52,188 nucleotides of DNA from a virus, in IMG/VR virus record IMGVR_UViG_3300047546_002180, positions 1-52,188 of that record; one strand, written 5' to 3'. Shown piece by piece: positions 853 through 51,903 of the stretch; position 1 is the first letter of the stretch; each line of letters begins with the position of its first letter. The notes beneath the pieces were generated by a model. The model was given only the letters and a program-made list of their open reading frames with translations. It made no database searches and was not told the DNA's origin. Made by a program: the position numbers and the translations under genes.

Positions 853-904
853 TTGACACGTTCCGACGCGCTGCTAACCTGTAACGGCCTCGGTCGCTGA
901 CCGT
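853..904 (+). promoter_or_regulatory. Left-arm promoter 1 with 5' stem-loop
   Basis: TTGACA at 853-858, 16-bp spacer, TAACCT at 875-880, preceded by GAATTTAC as in the other left-arm promoters. A hairpin CGGTC-gct-GACCG lies at 891-903, with an alternative outer pairing ACGG/CCGT at 884-904. This is the only member whose -10 also fits the GCTAnnCTG element seen before structural genes. Confidence 0.7.
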
Positions 905-2128: not shown

Positions 2129-2191
2129 AAAATTTAGTTGACACGCCCTGGAGCGTCGTGCGATACTAGCTATGCGCTCGGGGATCGAGCG
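2129..2191 (+). promoter_or_regulatory. Left-arm promoter 2 with 5' stem-loop
   Basis: AAATTTAGTTGACA with TTGACA at 2138-2143, 18-bp spacer, GATACT at 2162-2167. A hairpin CGCTCG-GGGAT-CGAGCG at 2175-2191 starts about 8 bases after the -10, at or near the expected transcript start. The following spacer up to the ATG at 2216 is poor in G. Confidence 0.8.
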
Positions 2192-4033: not shown

Positions 4034-4088
4034 TTGACACGTCCGGGGGCGATGCCTTAAGATGTAGAAGCGCAGGGGAAACGCTGCG
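4024..4088 (+). promoter_or_regulatory. Left-arm promoter 3 with 5' stem-loop
   Basis: GAAATTTAGTTGACA with TTGACA at 4034-4039, 18-bp spacer, TAAGAT at 4058-4063. The transcript start is followed by a hairpin, CGCAG/CTGCG (4071-4075/4084-4088) or alternatively AGCG/CGCT (4069-4072/4082-4085). The sequence continues TATTTTTT, so this leader also resembles an attenuator. Confidence 0.8.
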
Positions 4089-4109: not shown

Positions 4110-4391
4110 ATGAAGATTCAAGAAATTCAAGAGTTCAAAATCTTTAATCGCAGTCAAAAAGAATTGCGAATCATTCGTTTTCATCGCATTGATTGGGGCG
4201 CTTTTGAGAATTGTTTTCGCATGGTTGCGGAAAATCAAAAGGGCGAAATGGTAAATGCCAAGCCCTGCACAGAAGAATTTGCACAGCACATTCTTGATGA
4301 TGCGCTGCAAAATCTTGACCCACAAGATGTGGAGATCACAAAGTTTCAGCCGGTTGACGTTTCTCGCCCTGAAGTCTCAAATCATTTCTGA
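4110..4391 (+). CDS. Uncharacterised protein
   Basis: 93 residues, first gene after promoter 3. The ATG follows CCTCTCAGAAAA, the G-poor leader common in this arm, without a Shine-Dalgarno site. Basic N-terminal half (FKIFNRSQKELRIIRFHR) and acidic C-terminal half. No domain recognised. Confidence 0.7.
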   Translation: MKIQEIQEFKIFNRSQKELRIIRFHRIDWGAFENCFRMVAENQKGEMVNAKPCTEEFAQHILDDALQNLDPQDVEITKFQPVDVSRPEVSNHF

Positions 4392-4414
4392 TCGTTAATT
4401 TTCAACTTAAAATC

Positions 4415-5134: not shown

Positions 5135-5135
5135 T

Positions 5136-5218
5136 GAAATTTAGTTGACAGGTCGGGTGTCGATCGGTTACCATTAAAAGGTGAGGCGGGCGAGAGTTGC
5201 AACTTTCTCTCGTCTCAC
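5136..5218 (+). promoter_or_regulatory. Left-arm promoter 4 with long 5' stem-loop
   Basis: GAAATTTAGTTGACA with TTGACA at 5145-5150, 18-bp spacer, TACCAT at 5169-5174. Seven bases later a two-part hairpin begins: GTGAG/CTCAC (5181-5185/5214-5218) enclosing CGAGAG/CTCTCG (5191-5196/5207-5212). Stem placement matches promoters 2, 5, 6 and 7 although the arm sequence is different. Confidence 0.85.
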
Positions 5219-5243
5219 AATTTTCAATCTTCACAACAGAATT

Positions 5244-5504
5244 ATGCAGACTCAAATTGATCACGCAGACGGATCTGTTACGCCCGTCTGGATTATTTAC
5301 GCAGACGAATCGCAATGTCGCGAGTGGAATACTTCTGAAGGACTTGGAAATTACGCAGACGACGATTGTTATTCGCCCGGCTTTTATTGGGCGGTCTGCC
5401 ATCCAGGTTGTATTCCCGACTCAGATTTTTTCGGCCCGCACAAAACTGAAGAGTTGGCGGAAAAAGACGCTGAGGAATTTCTTACTGCTCACGATTGCTA
5501 CTGA
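5244..5504 (+). CDS. Conserved phage hypothetical protein
   Basis: 86 residues from ATG at 5244, which follows the leader hairpin and a TTCACAACAGAATT spacer; a longer reading from 5181 would start inside the hairpin and is rejected. The pattern FYWAVCHPGCIPDSDFFGP followed by an acidic helix is one I recognise from small proteins of many phages, where it is annotated only as hypothetical. No catalytic residues can be assigned. Confidence 0.75.
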   Translation: MQTQIDHADGSVTPVWIIYADESQCREWNTSEGLGNYADDDCYSPGFYWAVCHPGCIPDSDFFGPHKTEELAEKDAEEFLTAHDCY

Positions 5505-5509
5505 TAACG

Positions 5510-5884
5510 ATGGAAATCTTTGACGGCTACAAACTTCGTCAGGCGATTGAAGCTTTTGGTTTTGACGTTAAATGTTCTGATCCTCTGAAGGATTGGTATT
5601 TAACTGTTGGTGACAATGCAATTTTTCTGAACTGGGAAGTTTCACGTGACAGTCTGATTGATCTGTATCTCGAAAAGAATCGCACACATTCGATTGATTT
5701 CTTCGTCGGAGATCTTGATCTTTCTGCGATTGATTCAGAGCTGCAAGTTTATGCGCCCTGGCTTCATTTTGAAATGATTGATCTTTGGGAGCTTGCAGAA
5801 GTTGCAAAGCGCTGCGAAAAGTGGCACGTTCGCTGCATGTTGTACGTTCAGGATTCTCCTCACGCCCCGACACTTTTTGAATAA
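5510..5884 (+). CDS. Uncharacterised acidic protein
   Basis: 124 residues from ATG at 5510. Rich in Asp, Trp and Leu, alternating helical and strand-like segments (DWYLTVGDNAIFLNWEV). No domain recognised. Five bases separate it from the previous gene and 12 from the next, so it belongs to the promoter 4 unit. Confidence 0.7.
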   Translation: MEIFDGYKLRQAIEAFGFDVKCSDPLKDWYLTVGDNAIFLNWEVSRDSLIDLYLEKNRTHSIDFFVGDLDLSAIDSELQVYAPWLHFEMIDLWELAEVAKRCEKWHVRCMLYVQDSPHAPTLFE

Positions 5885-5896
5885 CAATCAAATCTC

Positions 5897-6100
5897 ATGA
5901 AAAATCTAATCTCTGACAACGAAGAATTTCTCAAGAGCGTTCTTGCAATTTCTGTAGGACTTGTTCTTGGATTTACTGGCGCACATTTAATTCAGACTGC
6001 AGCAAATGATCGCGTGCAAAAAACATGCGATGACAAAATTGTTGCGATCAGAACTTTACTAACAACAGAGTCGTTTTACTGCGTTAAACAAACAGATTAA
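5897..6100 (+). CDS. Small single-span membrane protein
   Basis: 67 residues. An acidic N-terminus is followed by one hydrophobic segment at about residues 12-33 (FLKSVLAISVGLVLGFTGAH) and a polar tail with two Cys. Probably an inner-membrane protein; topology is uncertain. No family recognised. Last gene of the promoter 4 unit. Confidence 0.65.
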   Translation: MKNLISDNEEFLKSVLAISVGLVLGFTGAHLIQTAANDRVQKTCDDKIVAIRTLLTTESFYCVKQTD

Positions 6101-6101
6101 A

Positions 6102-6173
6102 AATTTGTTTTGCAGCTTGCTTTTCTCTGATGACTTGTTAAGATGCGTCGGCGCTCGGACTTTTATCGAGCGC
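6102..6173 (+). promoter_or_regulatory. Left-arm promoter 5 with 5' stem-loop
   Basis: A degenerate member: AAATTTGTTTTGCAG replaces the usual AAATTTAGTTGACA, and the best-spaced -35 is TTGCTT at 6117-6122 (16 bp to TAAGAT at 6139-6144). A perfect hairpin GCGCTCG/CGAGCGC (6151-6157/6167-6173) starts seven bases after the -10, at the expected transcript start. Confidence 0.7.
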
Positions 6174-6198
6174 TTTCGCAACTTCACTAAACAGGATC

Positions 6199-6387
6199 AT
6201 GAAGGTCTCCGTCAAGAAATTTATTCAGTCGGACATGAGTTTCTTCTGGCTCACTCTTTCTGATGGGCGCAGAACTTATTGCCGTTCGATTTCTGGAGAA
6301 TTCGACAAGCGAACAGAATCTGCAGCTCGCGGAGTTATTGATGCTATCTACAACATTCGCCCTAACAACATTAAATTTGAGATCTGA
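6199..6387 (+). CDS. Small uncharacterised protein
   Basis: 62 residues, first gene after promoter 5. Reads as a compact alpha/beta protein (FFWLTLSDGRRTYCRSISG). The ATG follows an AACAGGATC leader, which has a weak AGGA. No domain recognised. Confidence 0.65.
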   Translation: MKVSVKKFIQSDMSFFWLTLSDGRRTYCRSISGEFDKRTESAARGVIDAIYNIRPNNIKFEI

Positions 6388-6388
6388 A

Positions 6389-6703
6389 ATGTTTACAAGA
6401 AAGGATTACATGTCTGGGAAATGCAATGAAAATGAATACTATTCTCAATTCTTAAACGAGAAAGTTATTGACGTTATCAAACGTTCAGTAACTTACAAAT
6501 ATATTGTTCAGGCGAGAGATAAAAAAGACTTTTTTGATGTTTCGGCGCAGCAGTGGGACTTTGCTACTGGCGCAATTCTTTGTTTGCTCGGCAAGGAACC
6601 TTTTAAGGAGCGGGGCGATTATGTCACGCACAACGGTTTAATTTGTATTGCAAAAGCTGCAGCGCGTCAAATCCTTGCAGAAAGGGAGGTGAAATTTAGT
6701 TGA
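6389..6703 (+). CDS. Conserved phage hypothetical protein
   Basis: 104 residues from ATG at 6389, one base after the previous stop. It begins MFTRKDYMSGKCNENEYYSQF; the DYm.gk...eYY.qf start is one I recognise from phage proteins of unknown function. The stop codon TGA at 6701-6703 is shared with the TTGACA of promoter 6, so gene end and promoter are fused. Confidence 0.7.
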   Translation: MFTRKDYMSGKCNENEYYSQFLNEKVIDVIKRSVTYKYIVQARDKKDFFDVSAQQWDFATGAILCLLGKEPFKERGDYVTHNGLICIAKAAARQILAEREVKFS

Positions 6704-6768
6704 CAGATAGCGGGGCGATGTCCTAAGATACAAAGGTGCGGGAGAGGGAGTCTTTCTTTTTCCCGCAC
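6691..6768 (+). promoter_or_regulatory. Left-arm promoter 6 with 5' stem-loop
   Basis: GAAATTTAGTTGACA with TTGACA at 6700-6705, 18-bp spacer, TAAGAT at 6724-6729. An 8-bp perfect hairpin GTGCGGGA/TCCCGCAC (6736-6743/6761-6768) begins exactly seven bases after the -10. Confidence 0.85.
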
Positions 6769-6795
6769 TGCATCAAAAATCTCATCTTCAGAAAA

Positions 6796-6984
6796 ATGAC
6801 TACTTACAAAACCATTCTGTTTCGTTTTGAGGGCAAGAATAAAGTTCTCGATCGTGGGCTAACTCTTGAGCAGGCGCAAGAGATTTGCAGCGACCCGAAC
6901 ACTTCTTCTCGCACTTGCGAAAAAGCTGCCAACTTCAAGAAATGGGGCGATGGCCCGTGGTTTGTCGGCTACGACGAAGAATGA
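6796..6984 (+). CDS. Conserved phage hypothetical protein (TLEQAQ...TSS...GYDE type)
   Basis: 62 residues from ATG at 6796 after the TCTTCAGAAAA leader; a longer reading from 6736 would start inside the hairpin. The order RGLTLEQAQEICSDPNTSSR, then WFVGYDEE at the C-terminus, is a recognisable small protein found in phages of many bacteria; its role is unknown. Confidence 0.8.
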   Translation: MTTYKTILFRFEGKNKVLDRGLTLEQAQEICSDPNTSSRTCEKAANFKKWGDGPWFVGYDEE

Positions 6985-7013
6985 TTCTCTCGCAAACTTC
7001 ATCTTTTAGAAAA

Positions 7014-7382
7014 ATGACTGATTTCGTTTGGACTGATTATTCACGAGGTTTTCGTGGTGGGGAATTTACTTCTGCGCCGATTGTTGTTTTTGACGAAGAT
7101 GGAGAAAAAACTACTCTGATGTTTACCGTCAAAGAATACACTTCGGAAGATACAGATTATTTTGGTGTAGAGGTTGCAAAGTGGTATCTCGAAGTAGAAA
7201 TTGTCGATACTAAAAAAATCGGCGACATGCAGGAATACGACACTGCACGAACTTATGGGCTCGGCGACGACTTTTCGCGAGCTGATTATGCTAAAGAGTT
7301 TGCAGATTTTGTTCTGCAATCTTACAAAACTCATCAGTCTTTGGCAGTTATGCCCGTGGCTGTTCTTGACGGTTATCAGTAA
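7014..7382 (+). CDS. Uncharacterised protein
   Basis: 122 residues from ATG at 7014, preceded by TTCATCTTTTAGAAAA. Acidic with strand-rich N-terminal half (APIVVFDEDGEKTTLMFTV) and a helical C-terminal half. No domain recognised. Second gene of the promoter 6 unit. Confidence 0.7.
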   Translation: MTDFVWTDYSRGFRGGEFTSAPIVVFDEDGEKTTLMFTVKEYTSEDTDYFGVEVAKWYLEVEIVDTKKIGDMQEYDTARTYGLGDDFSRADYAKEFADFVLQSYKTHQSLAVMPVAVLDGYQ

Positions 7383-7393
7383 TTATTTTCATC

Positions 7394-7720
7394 ATGATTA
7401 AATTTCCAAGCAAAAGAGACTGTCAAGTGCTTTGGGTTTTTGCAGCACTTGAAAGATTGCAGAATCTAGGGATGATTGGCGGGGCAAATTACAGTCTCAC
7501 GCCCGATGGAATTGATCTGTTCATCGAAATTGATGAGCATCGTGACGTACTTTTTGACAGCGAGCGTGATTTTGATCTGGCAGTGACACTTGTATGTCGC
7601 GACAAAAATCCTGATCACTCAGAAGAAGACATTGCTGGAATAATACAAGTTGTTAGAGATTTTCGCGATCGACGCGAAGATCTTGTAAAGTTTGCTCTTA
7701 ATGAAATTGTCAACAAATGA
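7394..7720 (+). CDS. Uncharacterised protein
   Basis: 108 residues. N-terminal helix (CQVLWVFAALERLQNLGM) followed by a strand-like section and an acidic helical C-terminus. No family recognised. Eleven bases after the previous gene. Confidence 0.7.
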   Translation: MIKFPSKRDCQVLWVFAALERLQNLGMIGGANYSLTPDGIDLFIEIDEHRDVLFDSERDFDLAVTLVCRDKNPDHSEEDIAGIIQVVRDFRDRREDLVKFALNEIVNK

Positions 7721-7755
7721 ATGCTCGCATGAAAAACTTGTATTCCTTCTCAAAA

Positions 7756-7914
7756 ATGAAAACGTTCAGAATTCTTTTTGAGCGCAACGATCATTCGGGC
7801 AAAATAGGATGGACAACAATCGAAGAATGTTATGACATGGATGAAGCTGTTTCTTATTTTCAAAAGCATTTCCCCGAGCAGGAAATTATTCAAGTGCGAG
7901 AAATTGCTGAGTGA
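7756..7914 (+). CDS. Small uncharacterised protein
   Basis: 52 residues from ATG at 7756 (MKTFRILFERNDHSGKIGW...), chosen because the preceding TTCCTTCTCAAAA matches the leaders of neighbouring genes. A longer 65-residue reading starts at 7717 with an ATGA overlap to the previous stop and cannot be excluded. The compact beta-alpha layout ending FPEQEIIQVREIAE looks like a complete small domain of unknown role. Confidence 0.6.
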   Translation: MKTFRILFERNDHSGKIGWTTIEECYDMDEAVSYFQKHFPEQEIIQVREIAE

Positions 7915-8071
7915 GAGCTGATTGCTCGCCTCAGGGATTCTTTCAGCGCCGCTCAGAAGCCTCTGGAAGCCCGTTGTTTTGCCCGGCAGGTATCTTTCCC
8001 GCCCGAGGCAGTTTCGACGGCTCTCAGGGGCTTTTCCGCGAGGGCTAAAAGGTGACTGCATTTAAGAAAAA
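7915..8071 (+). other. GC-rich structured non-coding spacer
   Basis: A 157-bp island of high GC between AT-rich genes, with no convincing ORF. Pairings include GCCTCaGGG with CCCgcccGAGGC across most of the spacer and GCtCTC with GAGgGC near 8020-8047. It has no T-run terminator. Composition resembles the spacer at 3572-3766. A structured RNA is possible; I cannot assign a class. Confidence 0.4.
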
Positions 8072-8533
8072 ATGAGATTCTTCACTGCTGCAGAAGTTCA
8101 AAGAAGATTGCGTGCAACAAAAACTTATTTGATGAAGTATAGAAATCAAAGAATTAAATTTCTGTGCTCGCACAATCTCCCCAGACTTGAACTTTTGTAT
8201 TACGACGCAGAAGATGAAATGAATTTTATTTGTGCGAGTGAGTTGAAAGAAGATGCGTTTAAGAAGGTTGTACGAGAGAATCTAGATTTATTTGCTGATG
8301 AAAATAATTACAAGCACATGAGTTTATCTGATTATGTAGATTCTCATTGTGCGCAACTTCAACAGCTATTTACTTTTACGTGTTTTTATTTATGTGATAC
8401 GCAAGGAAAAAATTTGTTCAAGGTGATAATTTGTCTCGGGAGTTTACATCATGCGCCGAGACTTCTTTATCGCGATGAGCTGTTAAATAGAACGTATTAT
8501 GAAAAATTAGTTGCTTATGATGATTTGCAGTGA
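8072..8533 (+). CDS. Uncharacterised protein
   Basis: 153 residues from an ATG preceded by TTTAAGAAAAA. Basic helical N-terminus (AEVQRRLRATKTYLMKYRNQR), then a mixed region with several Cys. No domain recognised. It stands alone between the GC-rich spacer and promoter 7, and uses more A/T-ending codons than its neighbours. Confidence 0.7.
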   Translation: MRFFTAAEVQRRLRATKTYLMKYRNQRIKFLCSHNLPRLELLYYDAEDEMNFICASELKEDAFKKVVRENLDLFADENNYKHMSLSDYVDSHCAQLQQLFTFTCFYLCDTQGKNLFKVIICLGSLHHAPRLLYRDELLNRTYYEKLVAYDDLQ

Positions 8534-8561
8534 GTGCTCGTTCCTTGCAAAAACTGGTGTC

Positions 8562-8634
8562 GAAATTTACTTGACATGCGATCCTTGAGGGCTTACAATG
8601 TAGGAGTCGGAAGGGAAAGAAATTTCTTTTTCGA
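8562..8634 (+). promoter_or_regulatory. Left-arm promoter 7 with 12-bp 5' stem-loop
   Basis: GAAATTTACTTGACA with TTGACA at 8571-8576, 17-bp spacer, TACAAT at 8594-8599. From 8607 the sequence TCGGAAGGGAAA pairs fully (with three G-T pairs) with TTTCTTTTTCGA at 8623-8634 around a GAAA tetraloop, so the transcript again begins with a hairpin. Confidence 0.85.
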
Positions 8635-8666
8635 TCACAACTGAATCTTTCGCTTTTCAAAAAATC

Positions 8667-9026
8667 ATGAGCAATCAGCAGCTTTTTGGTCTTGGCGAAA
8701 TTGCACTCGTCGCCACCAAGACTTTTCGTTACAAAGATCAATTTTCGTTCAGGTATTATTTCAACACTTGGAAAAAGGTTGAGCACTGCGGTGAAAATTG
8801 CGTTCTGTTTGAGCGTTTTTATGTTCATGCAGAAGCTGTTGACATTGCGTACAAAATTGCAGTGCAGCATCTTTATCGTGAGCTGAACGAAAAAGTTGAC
8901 GGCGCTGAACTTATTTCTGACTCGCTTGTTTTTGTTGGTGACAAACAGTACGAGGTCTCGCTGAATGTTCAGCACGAAGAAGTAATTTTCGATGACGCAG
9001 AGGATTTCGCTTATTGCTGTGATTGA
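8667..9026 (+). CDS. Uncharacterised protein
   Basis: 119 residues, first gene after promoter 7. Mixed alpha/beta, with an aromatic section (FSFRYYFNTWKKVEHCG) and an acidic C-terminus. The ATG follows CTTTTCAAAAAATC with no Shine-Dalgarno site. No family recognised. Confidence 0.7.
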   Translation: MSNQQLFGLGEIALVATKTFRYKDQFSFRYYFNTWKKVEHCGENCVLFERFYVHAEAVDIAYKIAVQHLYRELNEKVDGAELISDSLVFVGDKQYEVSLNVQHEEVIFDDAEDFAYCCD

Positions 9027-9065
9027 TTTCTGATCATTTCTAACTTTTCACATCGCAAACAGAAA

Positions 9066-9326
9066 ATGAACTATCGCGCCCCTTTGTTTCTCAACGACAA
9101 AAAAGAAGTTGACTACGATGTTTGGCAGCTTCTGACAGATGCGCAAAAAGCAAAACTTTGCACTTGGGCAATGATTCTTGAGGTGCAAGTCAAAGAAATG
9201 CTTGCTGATGCAAAGTTTATGGTTGAGCAAATTAACTCTGACAGCCAAGAAGTTTTCTTGTTCGGAATGTTGCCGAACTGCAAACTTTATGGGTGTGTTG
9301 CGCCCGATGGTTCTTCTCACACTTAA
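9066..9326 (+). CDS. Uncharacterised protein
   Basis: 86 residues, starting MNYRAPLFLNDKKEVDYDVW after a CACATCGCAAACAGAAA leader. Mostly helical, with Ala/Lys/Glu-rich centre and a Gly/Cys-containing tail. No domain recognised. Part of the promoter 7 unit. Confidence 0.7.
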   Translation: MNYRAPLFLNDKKEVDYDVWQLLTDAQKAKLCTWAMILEVQVKEMLADAKFMVEQINSDSQEVFLFGMLPNCKLYGCVAPDGSSHT

Positions 9327-9346
9327 TTTTCACTCGCATTAGAAAA

Positions 9347-9481
9347 ATGATTGATCACGAACAACTTGCGCAAGAGTCACAACTTTTCCCGTGGCTCGAT
9401 TCTGATTGCATGAGCGATAGTTTCATCGAAGAAGACTTTTTCGATGAAGCAAATCTTTTTGATGAAATGGACGAGGATTGA
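9347..9481 (+). CDS. Small highly acidic protein
   Basis: 44 residues from ATG at 9347, after the leader CTCGCATTAGAAAA. About a third of the residues are Asp or Glu (FIEEDFFDEANLFDEMDED at the C-terminus). Such very acidic small phage proteins sometimes act as DNA mimics or bind host regulators, but nothing here shows which; function unknown. Confidence 0.6.
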   Translation: MIDHEQLAQESQLFPWLDSDCMSDSFIEEDFFDEANLFDEMDED

Positions 9482-9485
9482 TCTT

Positions 9486-9647
9486 ATGTATTTTATCAAT
9501 CGTCAATCTAATAACTATCACGAAACTGTTGATGAGTATGAAACAAAAGCAGAGGCGTTGAAAGTTTTGCCCGAGTATCAATTCTCTGAACACGGGCGAG
9601 CTTTTTATTATGTTAGTCAAGTTTCTCAAAACAACTGGAAAAATTGA
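9486..9647 (+). CDS. Small uncharacterised protein
   Basis: 53 residues from ATG at 9486, four bases after the previous stop. Aromatic and polar (MYFINRQSNNYHETVDEYE...). Compact beta-alpha layout, no family recognised. Confidence 0.6.
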   Translation: MYFINRQSNNYHETVDEYETKAEALKVLPEYQFSEHGRAFYYVSQVSQNNWKN

Positions 9648-9649
9648 TC

Positions 9650-9997
9650 ATGAACAAAGAAATTAAAGCTCGCTGGGTTGAAGCATTGCGTTCTGGAAAT
9701 TATGAACAGGGTAGATACAACTTGCGACATCAAAATCAATTTTGTTGCTTAGGAGTTTTGTGCGATGTAGTAAAAGATGAAGTGGGTTGTAATTGGTTGC
9801 CCGCGCAAGATGATTTCAGTGGTTACAGATTTGATGAGGCCGATGAAATTTTGCCCAAGGTCGTAGCTGAATACGCGGACTTACAACTTTCGCCCAGACT
9901 CAAAACTTCTCAAGGCGTAGTTGAAATTGCAAATCTAAATGATTCGGCTGAGTATTCTTTTGAGCAACTAGCAGATTTGATTGAGGAGCAATTTTAA
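9650..9997 (+). CDS. Conserved phage hypothetical protein (WVEALRSGxYxQG, CCLGVLCD)
   Basis: 115 residues from ATG at 9650. It carries a well-known but uncharacterised phage signature: WVEALRSGNYEQGRYNL near the N-terminus, FCCLGVLCDVV in the first third, ANLND in the last third and a C-terminal FEQLADLIEE helix. Two adjacent Cys and a third Cys four residues on could bind metal. It is the last gene before the left-arm terminator. Confidence 0.8.
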   Translation: MNKEIKARWVEALRSGNYEQGRYNLRHQNQFCCLGVLCDVVKDEVGCNWLPAQDDFSGYRFDEADEILPKVVAEYADLQLSPRLKTSQGVVEIANLNDSAEYSFEQLADLIEEQF

Positions 9998-10064
9998 TGA
10001 TGTGATTGTTATTTTGTAAGTAACAGGAAATTAGGGACTTTCACGCCTCGCCCAACGGCGCAGA

Positions 10065-10090
10065 AACCTCGCTCAGCGCGAGGTTTTTTT
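10065..10090 (+). terminator. Rho-independent terminator of the left arm
   Basis: Perfect 8-bp stem AACCTCGC/GCGAGGTT (10065-10072/10078-10085), 5-base loop, continuing into seven T. It separates the accessory left arm from the packaging module. Confidence 0.92.
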
Positions 10091-10180
10091 GTGCTTGCAA
10101 CTTGTTGTTGCTCGCACAAGCTTTTTTATTGCGCCCGAGCTTTTCGTGTGATACTATCTTTTCACGCACTAACTCTTTTT

Positions 10181-10822
10181 ATGAGCGATCTTAACTTCTC
10201 TGATCAAGAAATCTTCTCTGATGATGATTCTGATTTACAAGATCTAAATGTTGAAGAATCGAATCTATTCGCGCAAGACTCTAACGCAATTTTGCATGAA
10301 CATCTTAATACAAAAAGTTTTTTTATTAGACAGGGTGGTGCAATTAATGAGAGTCAAAAAGAATTTGAATTGTTCGATTTCTACGCGAAGTGCGGTGGTG
10401 GTAGATCTTACAATTATATCAGCGCAATATTTAATTTGCAAGAGTCGAGAGTAGCTCAGATTGCAAAGAAAAATAATTGGGCACAACGTGTAGCTGATTA
10501 TGATCGTAATGAGTTTGCAAATAAATTACAGCTTGAGAAAGATGCAAGAGCAATTGAACATAAGCGCAAACTAGAAGAATATCGCTCTCAACAAGAATTT
10601 CTAGGGCGTGCTCTTTCTCATGATGCTGCAAAACTTGCGCAACTAGCTAATCGTACTTTAGATGAGTATCTAAATTCTGATCGCGCTTTAGATATGCGTG
10701 ACATTCCTAGCATTTTGAACAGCGCTGCAAAAGTTGCTGAAGTTGCAAAAAGTTTGCAATCTAATGCTCTGGGCGTTGATCAACTACTTATTGCACTTGA
10801 AGAAGCAGATTTCGATGAGTAA
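10181..10822 (+). CDS. Probable terminase small subunit
   Basis: 213 residues from ATG at 10181; an upstream reading from 10091 would begin in the terminator T run. After an acidic N-terminus, residues about 65-110 form a helix-turn-helix-like unit (FELFDFYAKCGGGRSYNYIS, then a second helix and NNWAQRVADYDRNE). The W..R...YD ending is a signature I associate with the DNA-binding domain of phage small terminases. A long charged coiled coil (LEKDARAIEHKRKLEEYR) follows, suited to oligomerisation. Position two genes upstream of the large subunit agrees. TerS sequences are very diverse, so the assignment rests on motif and position. Confidence 0.65.
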   Translation: MSDLNFSDQEIFSDDDSDLQDLNVEESNLFAQDSNAILHEHLNTKSFFIRQGGAINESQKEFELFDFYAKCGGGRSYNYISAIFNLQESRVAQIAKKNNWAQRVADYDRNEFANKLQLEKDARAIEHKRKLEEYRSQQEFLGRALSHDAAKLAQLANRTLDEYLNSDRALDMRDIPSILNSAAKVAEVAKSLQSNALGVDQLLIALEEADFDE

Positions 10823-11017
10823 TAGCTTTCGGAGTCGGCAAACATTTAATGTAGACGGCTTTTATCGTCTCTCATCTTTAGTTACTAAATATCCTAAATA
10901 AGTGTTCCCGAAATCGACTGCGCCGCAATAAGTTTCAGCCATGCTGCGATAGTATTTTCTCGCCGTTGCTCTAGTGAGCGACTGCGTTCTTATGTTGAGT
11001 CTAGAGCTTTCTCACTC

Positions 11018-11449
11018 ATGCCGAATTTTGCAGATCAGCGCGGAAAAGAAATGTTCAAAAACTTAATTGTTAAACGAAAAATACTAGGACTGACAACTTT
11101 TGACCTTGCGCTTTTTGGTTATTTGGCATTCATTTCTCGCAGCAGAGTTATTATTTCTGTCACCACAGCAGAACTTGCAGAGATAGTAGAAGAGCCCTAT
11201 CAGAAAGTTTCTGCATCTATTAAAAAATTCATTCATCTAGATTTATTAAAGAAAGTGAAATATAAAAACCATTCAGGCCTAATGATTTCACCATTGATAA
11301 TTAACAATGGCGGGATGAAAACAAAGACATTCAAGGTAAAATTATGGCAGGGCGAACTTAACATTCAACAACCAAAAGAAATTAAGTTTGAGCGAATTTA
11401 TCCCATTCAACGCAAATCTAAAAATGATGAAAATTTGCATTCATCTTAA
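11018..11449 (+). CDS. Winged-helix DNA-binding protein, RepL-like
   Basis: 143 residues. Residues about 25-95 look like a winged helix: FDLALFGYLAF (helix 1), VTTAELAEIVEEPYQKVSAS (turn and recognition helix), LLKKVKYKNHSGLMISPLII (wing and last strand). The final ISPLIINNGG segment resembles the end of the wing in plasmid RepL-type initiators. The C-terminal 40 residues are basic. The 195 bp upstream hold two small dyads and TAGTAT near 10950 but no clear promoter. Its 3' end runs directly into a long repeat array, so it may bind that array as a replication initiator or as a regulator; both are inference. Confidence 0.5.
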   Translation: MPNFADQRGKEMFKNLIVKRKILGLTTFDLALFGYLAFISRSRVIISVTTAELAEIVEEPYQKVSASIKKFIHLDLLKKVKYKNHSGLMISPLIINNGGMKTKTFKVKLWQGELNIQQPKEIKFERIYPIQRKSKNDENLHSS

Positions 11450-11750
11450 AATTTGCATTCATCTATAAAATTTCATTCATTCATAAATTTTGCATTCATC
11501 TATAAATTTGCATTCATCTAAAGTTTCGCATTCGCATAAATTTCACAGACGCGTAAATTTTATAAGTTGCATAAATTTTGCACTTGCGCAAATTTTGCAA
11601 GCGTGCTAAAATTTCACAGATGCTAAAATTTTACAATGTATAAAAATTATTGCAATTACAAAAGTTTTATAAATGCAAAAATTTTACAACTTACAAAAAT
11701 TATAAATGCAAACTGAATCTGTAAAGTATAAATAAATTTTGCAATGTGCT
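11431..11750 (+). repeat. Degenerate direct-repeat (iteron-like) array, AT-rich
   Basis: About 18 imperfect units of 15-20 bp based on AAATTTTGCATTCATCTAT, beginning inside the last codons of the 11018 gene. The first five units are close to each other (AAATTTGCATTCATCT core), later units drift while keeping AAATTT followed by TGC/CAC. Very low GC. This layout, next to a RepL-like gene, suggests a replication origin; a packaging (TerS-binding) site is the alternative because TerS and TerL flank it. Confidence 0.7.
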
Positions 11751-11807
11751 AAATGTTAAACAGCAATCGTTAAATGTTAAATAGTAATCGTTGTTTTATA
11801 CTTTACA
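11720..11807 (+). repeat. Perfect 13-bp inverted repeat around a tandem repeat pair
   Basis: TGTAAAGTATAAA at 11720-11732 is repeated inverted as TTTATACTTTACA at 11795-11807. Between the arms lie two adjacent 21-bp direct repeats at 11751-11771 and 11772-11792, differing at two positions, each of the form AAATGTTAAA...ATCGTT. Such a nested dyad at the end of an iteron array is typical of initiator or partition binding sites. Confidence 0.75.
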
Positions 11808-11882
11808 CTTTACTGATTCTATAATTGATGCAAACTAGCTAACAGTGTGACAGCTTGCTAACTTGCACAGCGTGGTGTGGAT

Positions 11883-11955
11883 GGGTCCCGATCGGTGCTG
11901 TAGGATTGGCGCAAGCCGGAAGGAACCCGGCCCCCAAACAATCCGATAGGACCCA
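11883..11955 (+). ncRNA. Structured 5' leader of the GC-rich island
   Basis: Three nested helices: TGGGTCC/GGACCCA (11882-11888/11949-11955), GGATTG/CAATCC (11903-11908/11939-11944) and GCCGG/CCGGC (11915-11919/11927-11931). The 3' arm of the outer helix contains the AGGACC that serves as ribosome binding site for the ATG at 11959, so folding would hide it. GTAGG and GGAAGGAAC in the middle recall the core of the cyanobacterial glnA/Downstream-peptide riboswitch class, but the match is partial. TATAAT at 11820-11825 is a candidate -10. Confidence 0.5.
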
Positions 11956-11958
11956 CAG

Positions 11959-12477
11959 ATGACCCGCACCAACAAAGCCGCCGCCGCTTCCCCCGCTCCC
12001 GAGAACGGCAACAACCGCCGTCCCCTGCCCACCGGCAAAGCCGGCCCGGTCCGCACCGTGAAGGCAGAGTCCGGCGCTGATCTCACTGACGACGCCATCG
12101 CCGCGCTACTGGCCAACGCGATGGTGGAGAAGGTCAAGCCGGCCCGCGCCGCCGCCAGCCCCCGCGTTACCCTGACCGCCGAGGCGGCCGCCACGTTCGC
12201 CGCGATGGGGTGGAACGCCCCCCGCGTTGACCACACCCACACGTGGAAGCACAACGCCGAGCAGACCCGCTTCAACGAGTGCAAGGGATCCCGCCCTTAC
12301 ACCGTCGCCGTGCAGCTCCTGCAGTCCGGCCCGCTCACCCTTGAGACCCTCGGCCGTATCTGGCTCCGCAACGGCAACGAGCCTGCCAAGCTGAACGCCA
12401 TTGCCAAGCAGCTTGCCAACCGTGCCGGCTGCCCCGTGCAGCAGATCGGCGACCGTTTGCAGCTGGTGACCGCCTGA
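11959..12477 (+). CDS. Uncharacterised GC-rich protein, possible C-terminal winged helix
   Basis: 172 residues. The first about 60 are Ala/Pro-rich and probably disordered; the C-terminal 65 (SRPYTVAVQLLQSGPLTLET, then an ANRAGCPVQQIGDRLQLV strand) resemble a small winged-helix domain, so DNA binding is a possibility. Codons end almost always in C or G, unlike all neighbours, and unlike them the gene has a clear AGGA site. This points to recent acquisition from a GC-rich phage or host. Confidence 0.7.
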   Translation: MTRTNKAAAASPAPENGNNRRPLPTGKAGPVRTVKAESGADLTDDAIAALLANAMVEKVKPARAAASPRVTLTAEAAATFAAMGWNAPRVDHTHTWKHNAEQTRFNECKGSRPYTVAVQLLQSGPLTLETLGRIWLRNGNEPAKLNAIAKQLANRAGCPVQQIGDRLQLVTA

Positions 12478-12820: not shown

Positions 12821-12829
12821 GCTATTCTG
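12821..12829 (+). promoter_or_regulatory. GCTAnnCTG element (candidate late promoter)
   Basis: GCTATTCTG, with TATTCT at 12823-12828 as the presumed -10, just after a run of eight T and 39 bases before the 31-residue ORF that precedes the large terminase. No -35 box is seen 16-18 bp upstream. Confidence 0.5.
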
Positions 12830-14380: not shown

Positions 14381-14389
14381 GCTACACTG
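14381..14389 (+). promoter_or_regulatory. GCTAnnCTG element before the portal gene
   Basis: GCTACACTG with TACACT at 14383-14388, 21 bases before the portal GTG. The -35 region (14360-14365) is AGATAG inside a GATA microrepeat, so no -35 box is present. Confidence 0.5.
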
Positions 14390-17015: not shown

Positions 17016-17043
17016 TACCTCCCGCAAGGGGGGTATTTTTTTT
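17016..17043 (+). terminator. Rho-independent terminator after the scaffold gene
   Basis: TACCTCCC/GGGGGGTA stem (17016-17023/17028-17035, one T-G pair) with a GCAA tetraloop, followed by eight T. Confidence 0.9.
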
Positions 17044-17047
17044 GACC

Positions 17048-17056
17048 GCTATTCTG
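17048..17056 (+). promoter_or_regulatory. GCTAnnCTG element after the terminator
   Basis: GCTATTCTG with TATTCT at 17050-17055, five bases after the terminator T run and 21 bases before the ATG at 17077. The place where a -35 would lie is occupied by the terminator stem. Confidence 0.55.
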
Positions 17057-17364: not shown

Positions 17365-17379
17365 CCTGCCGCTCTCGCC

Positions 17380-17553
17380 ATGAAAAAGAAAACTAAGACT
17401 GAAAAGAAAATCAGCAAAGTCATGCGTGAGTATGGCAAGGGCACGTTGAAATCCAGCTCGGGCCAGAAAGTGAAGAGCCGCAAGCAAGCCATTGCAATTG
17501 CAATGTCTGAAGCGGGCATGACTCGCAAACCCAAGAAAGGCGCCAAGAAATGA
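17380..17553 (+). CDS. Small basic DUF6496-like protein
   Basis: 57 residues. KKISKVMREYGKGTLKSSSG, then VKSRKQAIAIAMSEAG and a Lys-rich tail match the small basic protein often listed as DUF6496. Strongly positive. It overlaps the next gene by an ATGA. Part of a trio of small basic proteins ahead of the capsid gene. Confidence 0.75.
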   Translation: MKKKTKTEKKISKVMREYGKGTLKSSSGQKVKSRKQAIAIAMSEAGMTRKPKKGAKK

Positions 17554-17720
17554 AAAAGAAAACTGGACCCTACGAAAACATCAGGCGAAAGCGCGAGCGT
17601 ATTGCTGCAGGTAGTGGCGAGAAAATGCGTAAGCCGGGCGATCCTGGTGCGCCAACTGCTACTAATTTCCGTGCCGCCGCAAAAACCGCCAAGAAGCGCA
17701 AGTCCAAAAAGAAACGCTAG
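17550..17720 (+). CDS. Small basic protein, third of the trio
   Basis: 56 residues starting at an ATGA overlap. IRRKRERIAAGSGEKMRKPG, then GAPTATNFRAAAKTAKK and a poly-basic tail are features I recognise in short proteins of cyanophages and other aquatic phages. Possible role in DNA condensation or in binding the scaffold or capsid interior, by charge only. Confidence 0.7.
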   Translation: MKKKTGPYENIRRKRERIAAGSGEKMRKPGDPGAPTATNFRAAAKTAKKRKSKKKR

Positions 17721-17733
17721 TATTTGTGAGTTA

Positions 17734-17810
17734 GGGGCCGTGCCCCGTGTGCGCAGAAAGTGGCCGTGCCTCATTCTGCCTGTCTTGAGAGTGTGGACAT
17801 AGGCCGTGCC
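17734..17810 (+). repeat. Three GGCCGTGCC repeats upstream of the capsid gene
   Basis: GGCCGTGCC at 17736-17744, 17762-17770 and 17802-17810 in a 157-bp spacer. The first forms the hairpin GGGGC-cgt-GCCCC (17734-17746). A near copy (CGGGC-agt-GCCCG) precedes the tail tube gene at 21191-21203. A further hairpin GCGG/CCGC lies near 17830-17842. Candidate binding or processing sites for the most expressed structural messages. Confidence 0.55.
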
Positions 17811-17877
17811 TGTCCGCTCGCAAACTTTTGCGGTCGAACCGCAGCCAACTCCAATCATTCTCTTTTGAGGCAAAGCC

Positions 17878-21173: not shown

Positions 21174-21203
21174 GCTACGCTGCTGTTAGCCGGGCAGTGC
21201 CCG
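21174..21203 (+). promoter_or_regulatory. GCTAnnCTG element and hairpin before the tail tube gene
   Basis: GCTACGCTG at 21174-21182 (TACGCT 21176-21181) followed by a hairpin CGGGC-agt-GCCCG at 21191-21203. No -35 box. The hairpin begins about 10 bases after the -10, so it would cap the message; its loop and arms closely match the hairpin in front of the capsid gene. Confidence 0.5.
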
Positions 21204-23980: not shown

Positions 23981-24005
23981 AGCCGCCCACTTGGGCGGCT
24001 TTTTC
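23981..24005 (+). terminator. Rho-independent terminator before the tape measure gene
   Basis: AGCCGCCC-actt-GGGCGGCT stem-loop (23981-24000) running into TTTT. Confidence 0.92.
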
Positions 24006-24012: not shown

Positions 24013-24021
24013 GCTAGACTG
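24013..24021 (+). promoter_or_regulatory. GCTAnnCTG element before the tape measure gene
   Basis: GCTAGACTG with TAGACT at 24015-24020, right after a terminator and 23 bases before the GTG start. The -35 region lies within the terminator stem. Confidence 0.55.
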
Positions 24022-33088: not shown

Positions 33089-33097
33089 GCTAACCTG
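33089..33097 (+). promoter_or_regulatory. GCTAnnCTG element before the second tube-like gene
   Basis: GCTAACCTG with TAACCT at 33091-33096, 12 bases after the gpJ-like stop and 32 bases before the ATG at 33129. Confidence 0.5.
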
Positions 33098-44866: not shown

Positions 44867-44875
44867 GCTACTCTG
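44867..44875 (+). promoter_or_regulatory. GCTAnnCTG element before the 88-residue membrane protein
   Basis: GCTACTCTG with TACTCT at 44869-44874, 25 bases before the ATG at 44900. No -35 box. Confidence 0.5.
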
Positions 44876-49356: not shown

Positions 49357-50436
49357 ATGAGTGACTTCCTGACTGCTGCTCGCTGGACCGACAAAAAGCA
49401 TCCAGAGCCTCATCAGATCGCCGCCTGGAACTTTGCCTGGGGCATCCTGAATAAAGAGCAGCAGCAGGAATTCCTTGAAATTTTCCGTTCCGCCCCTGCC
49501 GTTTCTCAGCCTCTCAATTTCGAGAACTCTTGGGATGGCGTAGTTGCTGCAGCAAAGAATTCAGGCGCAAAGTTTCCCGAATGCGTTGCTGCGCAATGGG
49601 CGCTAGAGAGCGGCTGGGGCAAACATACAAGCGGCAAAAACAACTATTTTGGTATCAAGGGGCCGGGCTCTAGTGTTAAAACGCAAGAAGTCGTCAATGG
49701 GAAAACAATCACAATTACAGACGAGTTTCTTGATTTCAGAAGCTTAGGCGAATGTGTCGAATACCTAGTTGATCGTTGGTATCGCGACTGGAAAGAATAC
49801 AAGGGCGTCAATAACACAAATTCGCGAGAGGAGTGCGCTCGCTCACTTGTAAAGCAAGGCTATGCAACTGATCCTGCATACGCAGAAAAGCTGATCAAGA
49901 TCATGAGCGAAAAAGCTCCAGCAGTTAAGCCGGCAATGGCGCAAGCAAAAAATCCATTTCTTTATCTCACTCGCACGCACAAAACAAATGCCAATGGCCT
50001 TGAGCTGTTGAAGCTGCAGTATTTCAAAGAGGGGCGCTCGATCGACTCGATCAACGTCGTCTCCGGGGCGCCGGGCGCACAGCAGTTCAGGGTTGGCTCC
50101 CGCAGTCGCTCGGGCAGCCTTGAGCCCCTCCCAGAGGGCCGGTGGGGCGTTGAGGATGTGCAGTGGCAAGCCGGGAAGGACAACTACTCCGGCAACTGGG
50201 GGCCGGGCCTGGGGCCTGTCAGCACGCCTCTGCGGTATCTGGGGCCTGGGACCACGGAGCGCAGCGCGATCGAGATTCACATTGATTCCAACGCCCGCAC
50301 GTCTCCTGGCACGGCTGGCTGCATTGGAATTGCGAATGAAGCGGACTATCGCAAGTTCGTTGGGTGGTTGCGTGATACAGATCCACGCGATCTTTTTGTT
50401 GATTACTCTCTCGGTACTTGTCCTACGCCGAAGTAG
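49357..50436 (+). CDS. Endolysin: FlgJ-like glucosaminidase plus L,D-transpeptidase-like domain
   Basis: 359 residues. Residues about 60-190 match FlgJ-like N-acetylglucosaminidase: FPECVAAQWALESGWGKHTS with the likely catalytic Glu 84, then NNYFGIKG and CARSLVKQGYATDPAYAEKL. Residues 205-355 form a second domain with IEIHIDSNARTSPGTAGCIG (His 308, Cys 322), the His/Cys pattern of YkuD- and Tlde1-like L,D-transpeptidases or carboxypeptidases. It would cut both glycan and peptide parts of the wall. No signal peptide, so it needs a holin. Its stop touches the stop of the opposing sigma gene. Confidence 0.85.
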   Translation: MSDFLTAARWTDKKHPEPHQIAAWNFAWGILNKEQQQEFLEIFRSAPAVSQPLNFENSWDGVVAAAKNSGAKFPECVAAQWALESGWGKHTSGKNNYFGIKGPGSSVKTQEVVNGKTITITDEFLDFRSLGECVEYLVDRWYRDWKEYKGVNNTNSREECARSLVKQGYATDPAYAEKLIKIMSEKAPAVKPAMAQAKNPFLYLTRTHKTNANGLELLKLQYFKEGRSIDSINVVSGAPGAQQFRVGSRSRSGSLEPLPEGRWGVEDVQWQAGKDNYSGNWGPGLGPVSTPLRYLGPGTTERSAIEIHIDSNARTSPGTAGCIGIANEADYRKFVGWLRDTDPRDLFVDYSLGTCPTPK

Positions 50437-51324
50437 TCAGAGGTTGAGTTTGTTTTTAACTGAAAGAAGCAGGGCGCACTTTTGTATGCCCTTTCTTTCC
50501 AGTGCCTGCAATTTCCCCTTTGATAGTCCAGTCGTCTGCGACAGTTCAAGCCATGATGTTGGCTTTTCTCTGTGTCGCTCAAGAATGATATATCTTGTTT
50601 GCTCGTCAACAAATTCATCAAGTGCGTGATAAAGCGCTTCAATGTTAATCCTTTCCTCTGCATCATCAATTGTATTCGAGTTGCGCGGATCTGCGACTAC
50701 ATCAATGATTGCGCTTGAATCATCATTGTCAGTGCATTTTCTATCAAGACTGAAGGCGTTTCTGGGCGCATCAAGAAGTTTTCTGATGTCTTCTAAATCA
50801 ATGCCAATTTCGTCTGATATTTCTTGAAGCGACGGTTCGCGCCCGAGTGATTGAGCAAGCCTTTCCCCCGCCCTCCTGATTTGATGCAGGGCGTCGTAGG
50901 TGCCGATCGGGAGCCTGATCGTTGAGTCTGTCGCCTGCATCGCCCTCTGGATTGCCTGTCTGATCCACCAGTAGGCGTAGGTGCTCATGGCATAGCCACG
51001 AGTTGGATCGAACTTCTCGACAGCTCGCGCCAAACCGATATTCCCCTCTTGAATCAAATCCATGAAATCAAGAGTTTTTGCAAGTCTTGTGTATTTACGT
51101 GCGATCGTAACCACAAGGCGAAGATTGCAGTTAATAAATTTTGCTCTCGCCCTGATTCCTATTTTTTCTATTCGCAGTTCTTCTTCAGAGTATTCAGAGC
51201 GATCTTTTTCCTGTATTGCAATCCACGCCTGTATCTGCGTCCCAAGCATGACCTCCTGCGTTTTCGTCAGCAGGGGGTAGCGCCCGATCTCATTGAGGTA
51301 AGCCTGGATCGTGTCGCTCGCCAT
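50437..51324 (-). CDS. Phage sigma-70 factor, cyanobacterial group 1/2-like with altered region 4.2
   Basis: 295 residues from the ATG at 51324, preferred because region 1.2 starts there (DTIQAYLNEIGRYPLLTKTQ). Region 2 is well kept: FINCNLRLVVTIARKYTRLA, DFMDLIQEGNIGLARAVEKF, MSTYAYWWIRQAIQRAMQ. Region 3 follows (LAQSLGREPSLQEISDEIGI). In region 4.2 the recognition helix reads TGLSKGKLQALERKGIQ where standard factors have VTRERIRQIEAKALRK, so two of the usual -35-contact residues are replaced (E. coli Glu585 to Gly, Arg588 to Gln). It should bind host core RNA polymerase and direct it to promoters that do not need a -35 box. Converges on the endolysin without a terminator. Confidence 0.9.
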   Translation of the reverse strand: MASDTIQAYLNEIGRYPLLTKTQEVMLGTQIQAWIAIQEKDRSEYSEEELRIEKIGIRARAKFINCNLRLVVTIARKYTRLAKTLDFMDLIQEGNIGLARAVEKFDPTRGYAMSTYAYWWIRQAIQRAMQATDSTIRLPIGTYDALHQIRRAGERLAQSLGREPSLQEISDEIGIDLEDIRKLLDAPRNAFSLDRKCTDNDDSSAIIDVVADPRNSNTIDDAEERINIEALYHALDEFVDEQTRYIILERHREKPTSWLELSQTTGLSKGKLQALERKGIQKCALLLSVKNKLNL

Positions 51325-51484
51325 TTTGCGCTTGGGAACCTGTAGCAGCTTGCATGTAGTGCAGTTTCCAGAGAGCCTGCCACTCTTGCGCATGATCCCA
51401 CACCATGCCCAATCCGTAAACGCGCCATTTCCACTGATTTTCTTCGCATGGCGCTTGAAGCCATGGCTCGTTACGCTCAGTCAT
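51290..51484 (-). CDS. Small Trp-rich protein overlapping the sigma start
   Basis: 64 residues, MTERNEPWLQAPCEENQWK, with seven Trp. It overlaps the sigma factor start by 35 bases in another frame. The high Trp content and the fit between the divergent 51500 gene and sigma support it, but no family is recognised. Could serve to couple sigma translation. Confidence 0.5.
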   Translation of the reverse strand: MTERNEPWLQAPCEENQWKWRVYGLGMVWDHAQEWQALWKLHYMQAATGSQAQNGERHDPGLPQ

Positions 51485-51499: not shown

Positions 51500-51766
51500 A
51501 TGTCTCATTTAACGTATCGCCCGGAGGATCAGTTTCAGGAGAGACTCAATGCAGAACGCCTTAAGGAACTGTTCACGAAGCATGATCATCAGGGTTTACT
51601 TGACTTTGCGTTACTGTTAAACCATCAAGCGTCTTTCAATAACAGCAGGGCGTACTGGGCAATTTGCGAAGCAGCAAAGAATATGAGCGAAGAATTCAGC
51701 CTTGACAAGTACATGTCAATGGCGTCTGATGTACTAAAAGATGAAAATACCCGAGGCGGGATTTGA
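51500..51766 (+). CDS. Uncharacterised divergent protein
   Basis: 88 residues from ATG at 51500, transcribed away from the 51290 ORF with 15 bases between starts. Helical, polar (YRPEDQFQERLNAERLKELF, then AICEAAKNMSEEFSLDKYM). Its last six codons and stop lie in the 3' end of the minus-strand tRNA-Leu gene. No domain recognised. Confidence 0.6.
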   Translation: MSHLTYRPEDQFQERLNAERLKELFTKHDHQGLLDFALLLNHQASFNNSRAYWAICEAAKNMSEEFSLDKYMSMASDVLKDENTRGGI

Positions 51767-51821
51767 ACCCGCGCTTGAGCGATTTTAAGTCGCTTGCCTC
51801 GTTCCGCTGGGCTACTCGGGC
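51748..51821 (-). tRNA. tRNA-Leu (UAA)
   Basis: 74 bases on the minus strand. Acceptor GCCCGAG/CTCGGGT, D-stem GCC/GGC, anticodon arm AGCGA-CTTAAAA-TCGCT with anticodon UAA, T-arm GCGGG-TTCAAAT-CCCGC, discriminator A. The variable region is only five bases (CAAGC), whereas tRNA-Leu normally has a long arm. No CCA is encoded. It reads UUA. Confidence 0.85.
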
Positions 51822-51827
51822 TTGTGA

Positions 51828-51899
51828 TAGGTCCGCCGAGAATTGAACTCGGTTCTGCCGCTTATAAGGCGACGGCCTTAACCAATAGGCGACGGACCC
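51828..51899 (-). tRNA. tRNA-Ile (UAU)
   Basis: 72 bases on the minus strand. Acceptor GGGTCCG/CGGACCT, D-arm GCC/GGC, anticodon arm GTCGC-CTTATAA-GCGGC with anticodon UAU, T-arm CCGAG-TTCAATT-CTCGG, discriminator A, no CCA. It reads AUA, normally handled in bacteria by a lysidine-modified tRNA, so the phage supplies a direct reader. Six bases from the tRNA-Leu gene. Confidence 0.85.
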
Positions 51900-51903
51900 A
51901 TCT

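Follow-up and report, generated by a model that had tools for sequence, protein, structure and literature searches.

A conserved phage sigma factor with an altered region 4.2 and candidate single-element late promoters in a probable cyanophage lineage

Described systems and how the locus compares

The late promoters of bacteriophage T4 consist of a -10 element only. According to the accessible part of a T4 review, they are read by the phage sigma factor gp55 on the host core polymerase, and the review asks why no fused late sigma exists (PMC2988020). As that account has it, gp55 is a small, diverged sigma with domain 2, and gp33 is a separate mimic of domain 4 on the beta flap, whereas the protein described here carries both domains in one chain. 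It is encoded in a 52,188-nucleotide stretch of viral DNA, the whole of which we call the window.

In phages phiEco32 and 7-11, the sigma factors gp36 and gp47 take over the host core polymerase, and we propose a likeness of the window sigma to both; in the available text of the same report, the middle and late promoters of phiEco32 have a single element, tAATGTAtA, with no -35 box, and its early promoters use host sigma70 (PMC8948821). The putative late promoters of the window resemble the gp36 type in having one element and no -35. In contrast, the missing -35 of phiEco32 has been explained there by absent region 4 homology, whereas the window sigma has a region 4, conserved but altered, and the 7-11 promoters are bipartite, unlike the single-element sites of the window (PMC8948821). 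The motif and the host group of phiEco32 and 7-11 also differ from those of the window, gp36 and gp47 being compared by description.

The -10 element of Escherichia coli sigma38 (RpoS) offers another comparison, since the excerpt available gives it as CTAtacT, with C at both -13 and -8 and without a distinctive -35 box, features that the window late sites have as well (PMC3923258). Position 440 is not Thr in either protein (Glu in RpoS, Gln in the window sigma). However, RpoS keeps R584, E585, R586, R588 and Q589, and its residue at 458 is Lys, in contrast to the Asp or Glu of the phage family.

Cyanophages are known to carry sigma genes. Going by the accessible portions of most of these reports, P-SS2 has two sigma factors (PMC2784084), KBS2A an RpoD (PMC3751600) and S-LBS1 an RpoD (PMC6157547), and a putative sigma factor occurs in 65 of 153 cyanophage genomes (PMC10452541). 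Cyanosiphovirus sigma genes and phage promoters with no -35 box are thus each already known, separately. According to the original prediction, no system of this exact kind is known to have been described in cyanophage siphoviruses. As judged from titles and the opening of abstracts, none of the papers listed in searches on cyanophage or cyanosiphovirus sigma factors, late promoters and phage-encoded sigmas describes such a sigma-promoter pair, and none was found that deals with how cyanosiphoviruses control their late genes. The statement therefore stands for the pair and not for sigma factors as such, which are known in S-CBS1, S-CBS2, S-CBS3, KBS-S-2A, S-LBS1 and P-SS2.

Our residue comparison with cyanosiphovirus sigmas covered S-CBS1, S-CBS3 and KBS-S-2A, which represent the RpsD4 type, and S-LBS1. 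In all four an endolysin gene 0.4 to 1.5 kb away faces the sigma gene in convergent orientation, as one does in the window, and the protein has the cyanobacterial-type Y432 found in the window sigma; the sigma and endolysin genes of S-CBS2, unlike those of the window, are not convergent. S-CBS1, S-CBS3 and KBS-S-2A keep E585, R588 and Q589 in a canonical SRExxRQ helix, in contrast to the window sigma, and S-LBS1 has lost these residues in another way. Enrichment of the window's late motif, GCTAnnCTG, was absent in the four genomes.

The predicted sigma factor and its region 4.2

The sigma gene occupies positions 50437 to 51324 on the minus strand (51324..50437) and is the last minus-strand gene before the late module. 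The predicted protein, of 295 residues, is a complete sigma-70-type factor. It matched PHROG 351 ("RNA polymerase sigma factor") at 4.5e-59, and Pfam profiles recognized regions 1.2 (7.9e-12), 2 (3.2e-20) and 3 (2.5e-14); the Pfam region 4 profile gave no match at an E value of 0.001. In phmmer comparisons, solved SigA chains aligned with it nearly end to end, through region 4 to residue 282, and the segment around DLIQEGNIGL matched SigA chains. The start at 51324 is backed by an N terminus common to the relatives, most of whose matches begin there; an alternative start at 51393, which has a far larger overlap with a small ORF at 51484..51290, was rejected. Comparison with the relative L003 indicated purifying selection (whole-gene dN 0.079, dS 1.45), with region 2 better conserved (dN 0.021) than region 4 (dN 0.108), although dS was saturated in many segments, so that region-wise dN/dS is indicative only.

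We numbered residues as in E. coli RpoD and aligned the window sigma with those of L002 to L039 except the partial L033, the partial L040 being dropped as well (38 rows, 33 distinct), with RpoS added to the alignment. The sigmas of L002 and G001 are identical to that of the window. Region 2 of the window sigma reads WWIRQAIQR (T440 to Gln), and its region 4.2 reads LSKGKLQALE where E. coli has VTRERIRQIE, which replaces E585 by Gly and R588 by Gln, presumably two of the side chains that contact TTGACA in E. coli sigma-70. Both observations agree with the original prediction, which had recognized a phage-encoded sigma with WWIRQAI kept and Gln as the next residue, and a 4.2 helix in which Glu585 and Arg588 were replaced. 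Further changes are R584 to Lys, R586 to Lys, Q589 to Ala, H455 to Gly and K426 to Ala.

Across regions 1.2 and 2, E116, N383, L386, F419, Y425, S428, T429, Y430, W433, W434, R436 and Q437 were unchanged in all 38 family rows, and R423 and R451 were kept in 37; we take the individual roles of the kept positions to be -10 contact or -10 melting. E420 is Asp throughout the family, as in RpoS, and M102 and R103 are replaced by Leu and Asn in every row. The other replacements are equally regular in region 2 (K426A 38/38, F427M 36/38, T440Q 37/38, H455 lost in 37/38) and in region 4 (L573W 38/38, R588Q 37/38, E585 replaced in 35/38). Position 458, at which the lysine of RpoS has a role in reading C-13, is Asp in 25 rows, Glu in 12 and Asn in 1, and Lys in none.

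In a wider scan, matches numbered at least 578 and took in every type of sigma relative, so that the figure is not a clade size; 80 were kept. In the 47 distant relatives that we aligned (42 distinct), L573 was Trp in all and E585 was present in none; position 588 was Gln in 34 and Arg in 2, and position 440 was Thr in 30 and Gln in 12. A phylogenetic tree placed the family, G073 and the 17 distant relatives included in it in one 35-row clade with the window (support 100/98). The sigmas of S-CBS1, S-CBS3, KBS-S-2A, S-LBS1 and G056/G069 and the cellular sigmas fell outside it, with long branches for S-LBS1, RpoS, S-CBS3 and Streptosporangium.

The 4.2 changes are nearly fixed in the family and the altered helix is common to the wider clade, arguing against erosion. 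Thus, the putative -35-reading helix is changed and kept, not decayed, and the word "eroded" in the original prediction does not hold. Structure prediction of region 4, which had been suggested as a check, speaks against it too: helices at residues 241 to 250, 258 to 265 and 269 to 294 fold as a helix-turn-helix in the model, with a pLDDT of 76 to 89 by blocks over residues 241 to 290. The model as a whole, built from an alignment of 27 sequences, had a mean pLDDT of 75.5 and a pTM of 0.45. Its nearest folds were sigmaA chains, that of Synechococcus 7942 among them, with a poor whole-chain superposition (TM about 0.4, rmsd 26 to 28).

The nine distant-clade genomes had been considered viruses with unrelated structural genes, an idea contradicted by their terminase relatives (37 to 39%, in 7 of 9) and portal relatives (25 to 26%, in 7 of 9). 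By terminase and portal they are distant relatives of the window's phage.

We rejected a close cellular source of the sigma: a scan of genome contigs found 17 loci at 29 to 44% identity, and a cyanobacterial plasmid sigma reaches 40%. Y432 occurs in 4 of 4 cyanobacterial plasmid sigmas and in 0 of 3 other sigmas compared, a distribution that fits a cyanobacterial origin of the window sigma. The host is probably a cyanobacterium. This we infer from Y432, from the best isolate matches of the sigma, which come from Synechococcus phages, and from a Kyanoviridae Gp96 domain in the gene at 4415-5131 (5e-8); the best isolate matches of the capsid, at about 40%, are Bacillus and other phages, which keeps the assignment at that strength. 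As a separate observation, record MW495066.1 (L391), labelled Microcystis phage MaAM05, has a 40.7-kb stretch whose annotation lists aconitase, isocitrate dehydrogenase and HemW along with other cellular genes, and it looks like bacterial rather than phage DNA.

An endolysin gene (49357..50436, plus strand; PHROG endolysin, 2.4e-65) lies convergent to the window sigma gene, and the two stops abut tail to tail at 50436/50437 with no gap. The matched ends of the two genes lie at most 35 bp apart in 17 of 38 loci, and an endolysin homologue is convergent with sigma within 3 kb in 25 of 38, more than 600 bp lying beyond the sigma gene in 35 of 38. Given this abutment, late readthrough would be antisense to the sigma gene, possibly a negative feedback. 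Lying at the end of an operon that runs against the late genes, the sigma gene is placed as one would expect of an early or middle gene whose role is to activate late ones. Upstream, a small ORF of 64 residues (MTERNEPW..., 51290..51484, minus strand) overlaps the sigma start, and another (MSHLTYRPED..., 51500..51766, plus strand) is divergent from this pair. Neither has a Pfam match; homologues occur in 36 and 34 of 39 sigma loci, respectively, and some of the loci that form the exceptions are cut near the gene. The 64-residue product could be a partner or regulator of the sigma. Genes for tRNA-Leu (taa; 51748-51821) and tRNA-Ile (tat; 51826-51900) lie upstream of the operon on the minus strand.

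Two classes of promoter-like sites

Gene calls came from a simple caller, and some called gaps are missed genes. Six promoter-like TTGACA sites lie on the plus strand of the left arm: TTGACA-16-TAACCT (853..881), TTGACA-18-GATACT (2138..2167), TTGACA-18-TAAGAT (4034..4063, and again at 6700..6729, where it begins in the last bases of a gene), TTGACA-18-TACCAT (5145..5174) and TTGACA-17-TACAAT (8571..8599). The first holds a GCTAnnCTG site (873), the one with a perfect TTGACA 16 bp upstream. Of the plus-strand TTGACA copies, 5 of 9 in positions 1-12000 lie in called gaps, versus 2 of 18 in 12001-50436. A looser sigma70 scan of the three thirds of the window gave no excess (23 versus 20.4 expected, 19 versus 16.7 and 17 versus 14.4), so that support for the left-arm class comes from the exact TTGACA copies and from relatives. 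Among the latter, G015, G017, G033 and G045 (e.g., G045:3455, 5587 and 8762) repeat an early-type TTGACA-17-TATAAT, mostly as TGCTATAAT.

GCTAnnCTG is not in excess in the window as a whole (9 copies, versus a mean of 6.11 in shuffles, 18 of 100 of which reached 9). Enrichment by whole-window count being not significant, we turned to placement and footprint tests. Upstream of called genes, GCTAnnCTG ranked first among the motifs found de novo, with 7 sites versus 0.38 expected (P 1.6e-7, uncorrected, with about 1e5 patterns tried); these include 873 and miss 17048, owing to a wrong gene call there. Seven of the nine copies precede late genes, on the plus strand. GCTATTCTG stands at 12821..12829, 96 bp before the called start (12917) of the large terminase gene, and again at 17048..17056, after a terminator-like hairpin (17016-17035) and 29 bp (measured in G001) before gene 17077, between the scaffold and capsid genes. 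GCTACACTG (14381..14389) is 29 bp before the portal gene. The site with the best footprint, GCTACGCTG (21174..21182), is 55 bp before gene 21229, and GCTAGACTG (24013..24021) directly follows a second such hairpin (23981-24000), 31 bp before the tape-measure gene. GCTAACCTG (33089..33097) is 40 bp before the tail gene 33129, and GCTACTCTG (44867..44875) 33 bp before gene 44900. The copy at 34040, on the minus strand, is inside a gene. PHROG names for the late genes are terminase, portal, scaffold, capsid, adaptor, tape measure, tail proteins and endolysin; gene 21229 had no PHROG match.

At the seven late sites, the best TTGACA match at 16 to 18 bp was only 1 to 3 of 6 positions, and the motif can be read as a single element with G at -14, C at -13, T at -12, A at -11, C at -8, T at -7 and G at -6. 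Thus, the earlier claim of GCTAnnCTG late promoters with no -35 box stands by placement before seven late genes and by footprint, and falls by simple count (9 versus 6.1). Two stretches nearby deserve mention. Positions 17365-17877, about 500 bp between the site at 17048 and the major capsid gene, have no called plus-strand gene and are possibly a long leader. A TGCTAnnAT sequence near 16130 falls within the last part of the portal reading frame, a short distance ahead of the scaffold gene; shared by the window with six relatives (7 of the 8 compared), it is possibly a weaker promoter or simply coding.

For the footprint, we sampled 80 loci encoding a capsid relative and compared the DNA before three genes wherever the N terminus was reached and enough upstream DNA was present. 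Before orthologues of gene 21229, GCTAnnCTG occurred in 47 of 57 viral loci, with six different nn pairs; it was present in all 30 leaders with at least 79% capsid identity and in 17 of 27 below. In the 17 distinct sequences of those 30 leaders, most columns neighbouring the motif vary. The motif preceded the portal gene in 14 of 42 loci (10/17 and 4/25), always with CA as nn, and the tape-measure gene in 5 of 5, with GA. The sites of more remote lineages have diverged to GCTAnnATG, GCTAnnATT or other forms.

The leader of gene 21229 has a further conserved sequence, GGGCnnnGCCC, at 21192-21202 in the window and in the orthologous leaders (L122-L201). It is present in 57 of 57, with an AGT loop in 54, and lies 8 to 10 bases after the -7 T in 54 of 55 leaders that have both, so that it is better conserved than the promoter itself. 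On sequence grounds, our reading is a 5' leader hairpin or an operator; the folding energy of the leader in the window was not unusual (z -0.86).

To assess how general the motif is, we searched 40 IMG/VR records de novo. Only four, the window, G036, G043 and G073, had GCTAnnCTG among their leading patterns (2/15, 1/15 and 1/10 records by batch); it ranked top in the window, joint top in G043, second in G036 and third in G073, behind GCTAnnnTGA and CTAnnnTGA. The remaining records gave TTGACA-type or terminator-type patterns, or nothing clear.

As a control, we counted GCTAnnnT with no -35 box 27 to 36 bp before called starts and compared it with the other 23 orders of the four letters; sites 19049 and 30028 of the late list, probably in coding DNA, were retained in the counts. 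The window had 4 (mean of the other orders 0.30, maximum 2), the 13 family records other than the window 41 (mean 5.74, maximum 21), group B 28 (mean 2.30, maximum 5) and the nine far-clade genomes 16 (mean 2.04, maximum 12); 32 further far loci gave no clear excess (9; mean 2.70, maximum 19). The excess lay at 27 to 36 bp from starts, with none at 63 to 120. GCTAnnnT was also the top tetramer in G056, G069 and G064 taken together (12; mean 0.74, maximum 3); G056 and G069 carry another sigma, and none was found in G064. Counts were 2 in S-CBS1, S-CBS3, KBS-S-2A and S-LBS1 (mean 0.48, maximum 2), a mildly raised 5 in S-H1, S-CBS2 and S-CREM2 (mean 0.91, maximum 3), 6 in L041-L081, which have other sigmas (mean 3.04, maximum 12), and 0 in both lambda and cell-like Microcystis DNA. 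The GCTA core may therefore be an ordinary cyanophage or cyanobacterial -10, and it is not exclusive to the window sigma clade. The family late class is marked instead by C at -8 together with the absence of T at -15 and of a -35 box.

In 14 family records, thinned for this two-class comparison only, the base at -8 was A in 13 and C in 4 of the 24 sites with a -35, versus A in 9 and C in 29 of the 54 sites with none (Fisher P 0.002 and 0.003, sites being treated as independent, which overstates the evidence where they were inherited together). The late class of the family had no conserved base within 30 positions upstream of GCTA. Among late-type sites, unthinned, C was at -8 in 44 of 71 in the family, versus C in 3 and A in 11 of 18 in G056, G069 and G064 (P 0.001 and 6.5e-5, with the same overstatement). 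We rejected T440Q as the cause of C at -8, because distant genomes with Q440 show C in 6, A in 5 and G in 4.

The correspondence has gaps. G006, whose sigma is 62% identical, had four GCTAnnnT and zero GCTAnnCTG on the late strand 20 to 70 bp from starts, and the called gaps of G007, G037 and G038 had no GCTAnnCTG. G063, G060, G054 and G051 were considered as sigma-less phages with the motif and rejected as evidence either way, since none has an endolysin homologue; the matches of G063, G060 and G054 to window genes run out in the tail module, close to where the contig stops, and coverage probably does not extend to the sigma region. The case is less clear for G051, which is rearranged, and G073, of the same lineage as these four, carries a sigma. 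The records compared included no relative for which absence of a sigma could be demonstrated.

A proposed late switch and its alternatives

The candidate late-promoter class and the rewired sigma are each real and conserved; that the window sigma reads the GCTAnnCTG promoters we infer from the two together. We give a probability of roughly 0.7 to a model in which a phage late sigma directs the host core polymerase to single-element late promoters, the left arm being read by the host sigma. In this model, the left arm would be transcribed first, by host RNA polymerase carrying its primary sigma, and the window sigma, made from the minus-strand operon, would then join the host core polymerase. 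Its regions 2 and 3 would read a -10-type element with no -35 contacts and thereby turn on the head, tail and lysis genes. The late switch proposed in the original prediction is retained in its left-arm TTGACA sites, single-element late sites, complete sigma and conserved late motif, and is revised in that the helix is not eroded.

A rather unlikely alternative is that the host sigma reads both classes, GCTAnnnT serving as an extended -10 for SigA or a group 2 sigma with no -35, while the phage sigma has another task, such as a few genes or host transcription. Many -35-bearing sites of the relatives read TGCTATAAT and so have the GCTA start in common with the late sites (the scans preset CTAnnnT or GCTAnnnT), and GCTAnnnT is found in phages whose sigma is a different one and, at a low level, in other cyanophages. 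Moreover, in the accessible parts of two reports, the late promoters of Ma-LMM01, a cyanophage with no gp55, resemble SigA sites (PMC5780444), and the sigmas of S-CBS2 and S-CBS3, when expressed, changed host metabolism (PMC10452541). Against this, the late sites differ at -8 from the early-type sites of the same genomes and have neither T at -15 nor a -35 box, and the base at -8 differs between lineages with different sigmas.

It seems very improbable that the sigma acts mainly against the host, occupying the core polymerase and lowering host transcription while late genes are expressed by readthrough or antitermination. The better conservation of region 2 than of region 4 against L003 would suit such a role, but the late genes have their own conserved promoter-like sites, two of seven directly after terminator-like hairpins. 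Scarcely credible, in our view, is that GCTAnnCTG is a protein-binding or RNA leader element kept for a reason other than promoter function. That idea draws on the second, better conserved element of the gene 21229 leader, GGGCnnnGCCC, found in all 57 loci; however, none of the window's other six late sites has this element in the 52 bases that follow it, and GCTAnnCTG precedes unrelated genes at a typical promoter distance (27 to 36 bp) and fits a -10 hexamer, TAnnCT.

Extending the model of a phage late sigma that reads single-element promoters, we tentatively suggest, as a possibility we hold doubtful, that the wider viral sigma clade gave up -35 reading and kept domain 4 bound to the flap as a docking arm, on which a phage activator, perhaps the 64-residue protein encoded just upstream, could dock. 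This would be a single-chain version of T4 gp55 plus gp33, with a one-element promoter diverging at -8 along with its sigma. If the late-sigma model itself is right, a viral sigma clade and a promoter predicted letter by letter would allow late promoter calls in many uncultured cyanophage genomes, and the series T440/Q440, R588/Q588 and A/C at -8 would be a natural one for how sigma specificity changes. The sigma and its matching late signal suggest a way in which late genes may be activated in such viruses.
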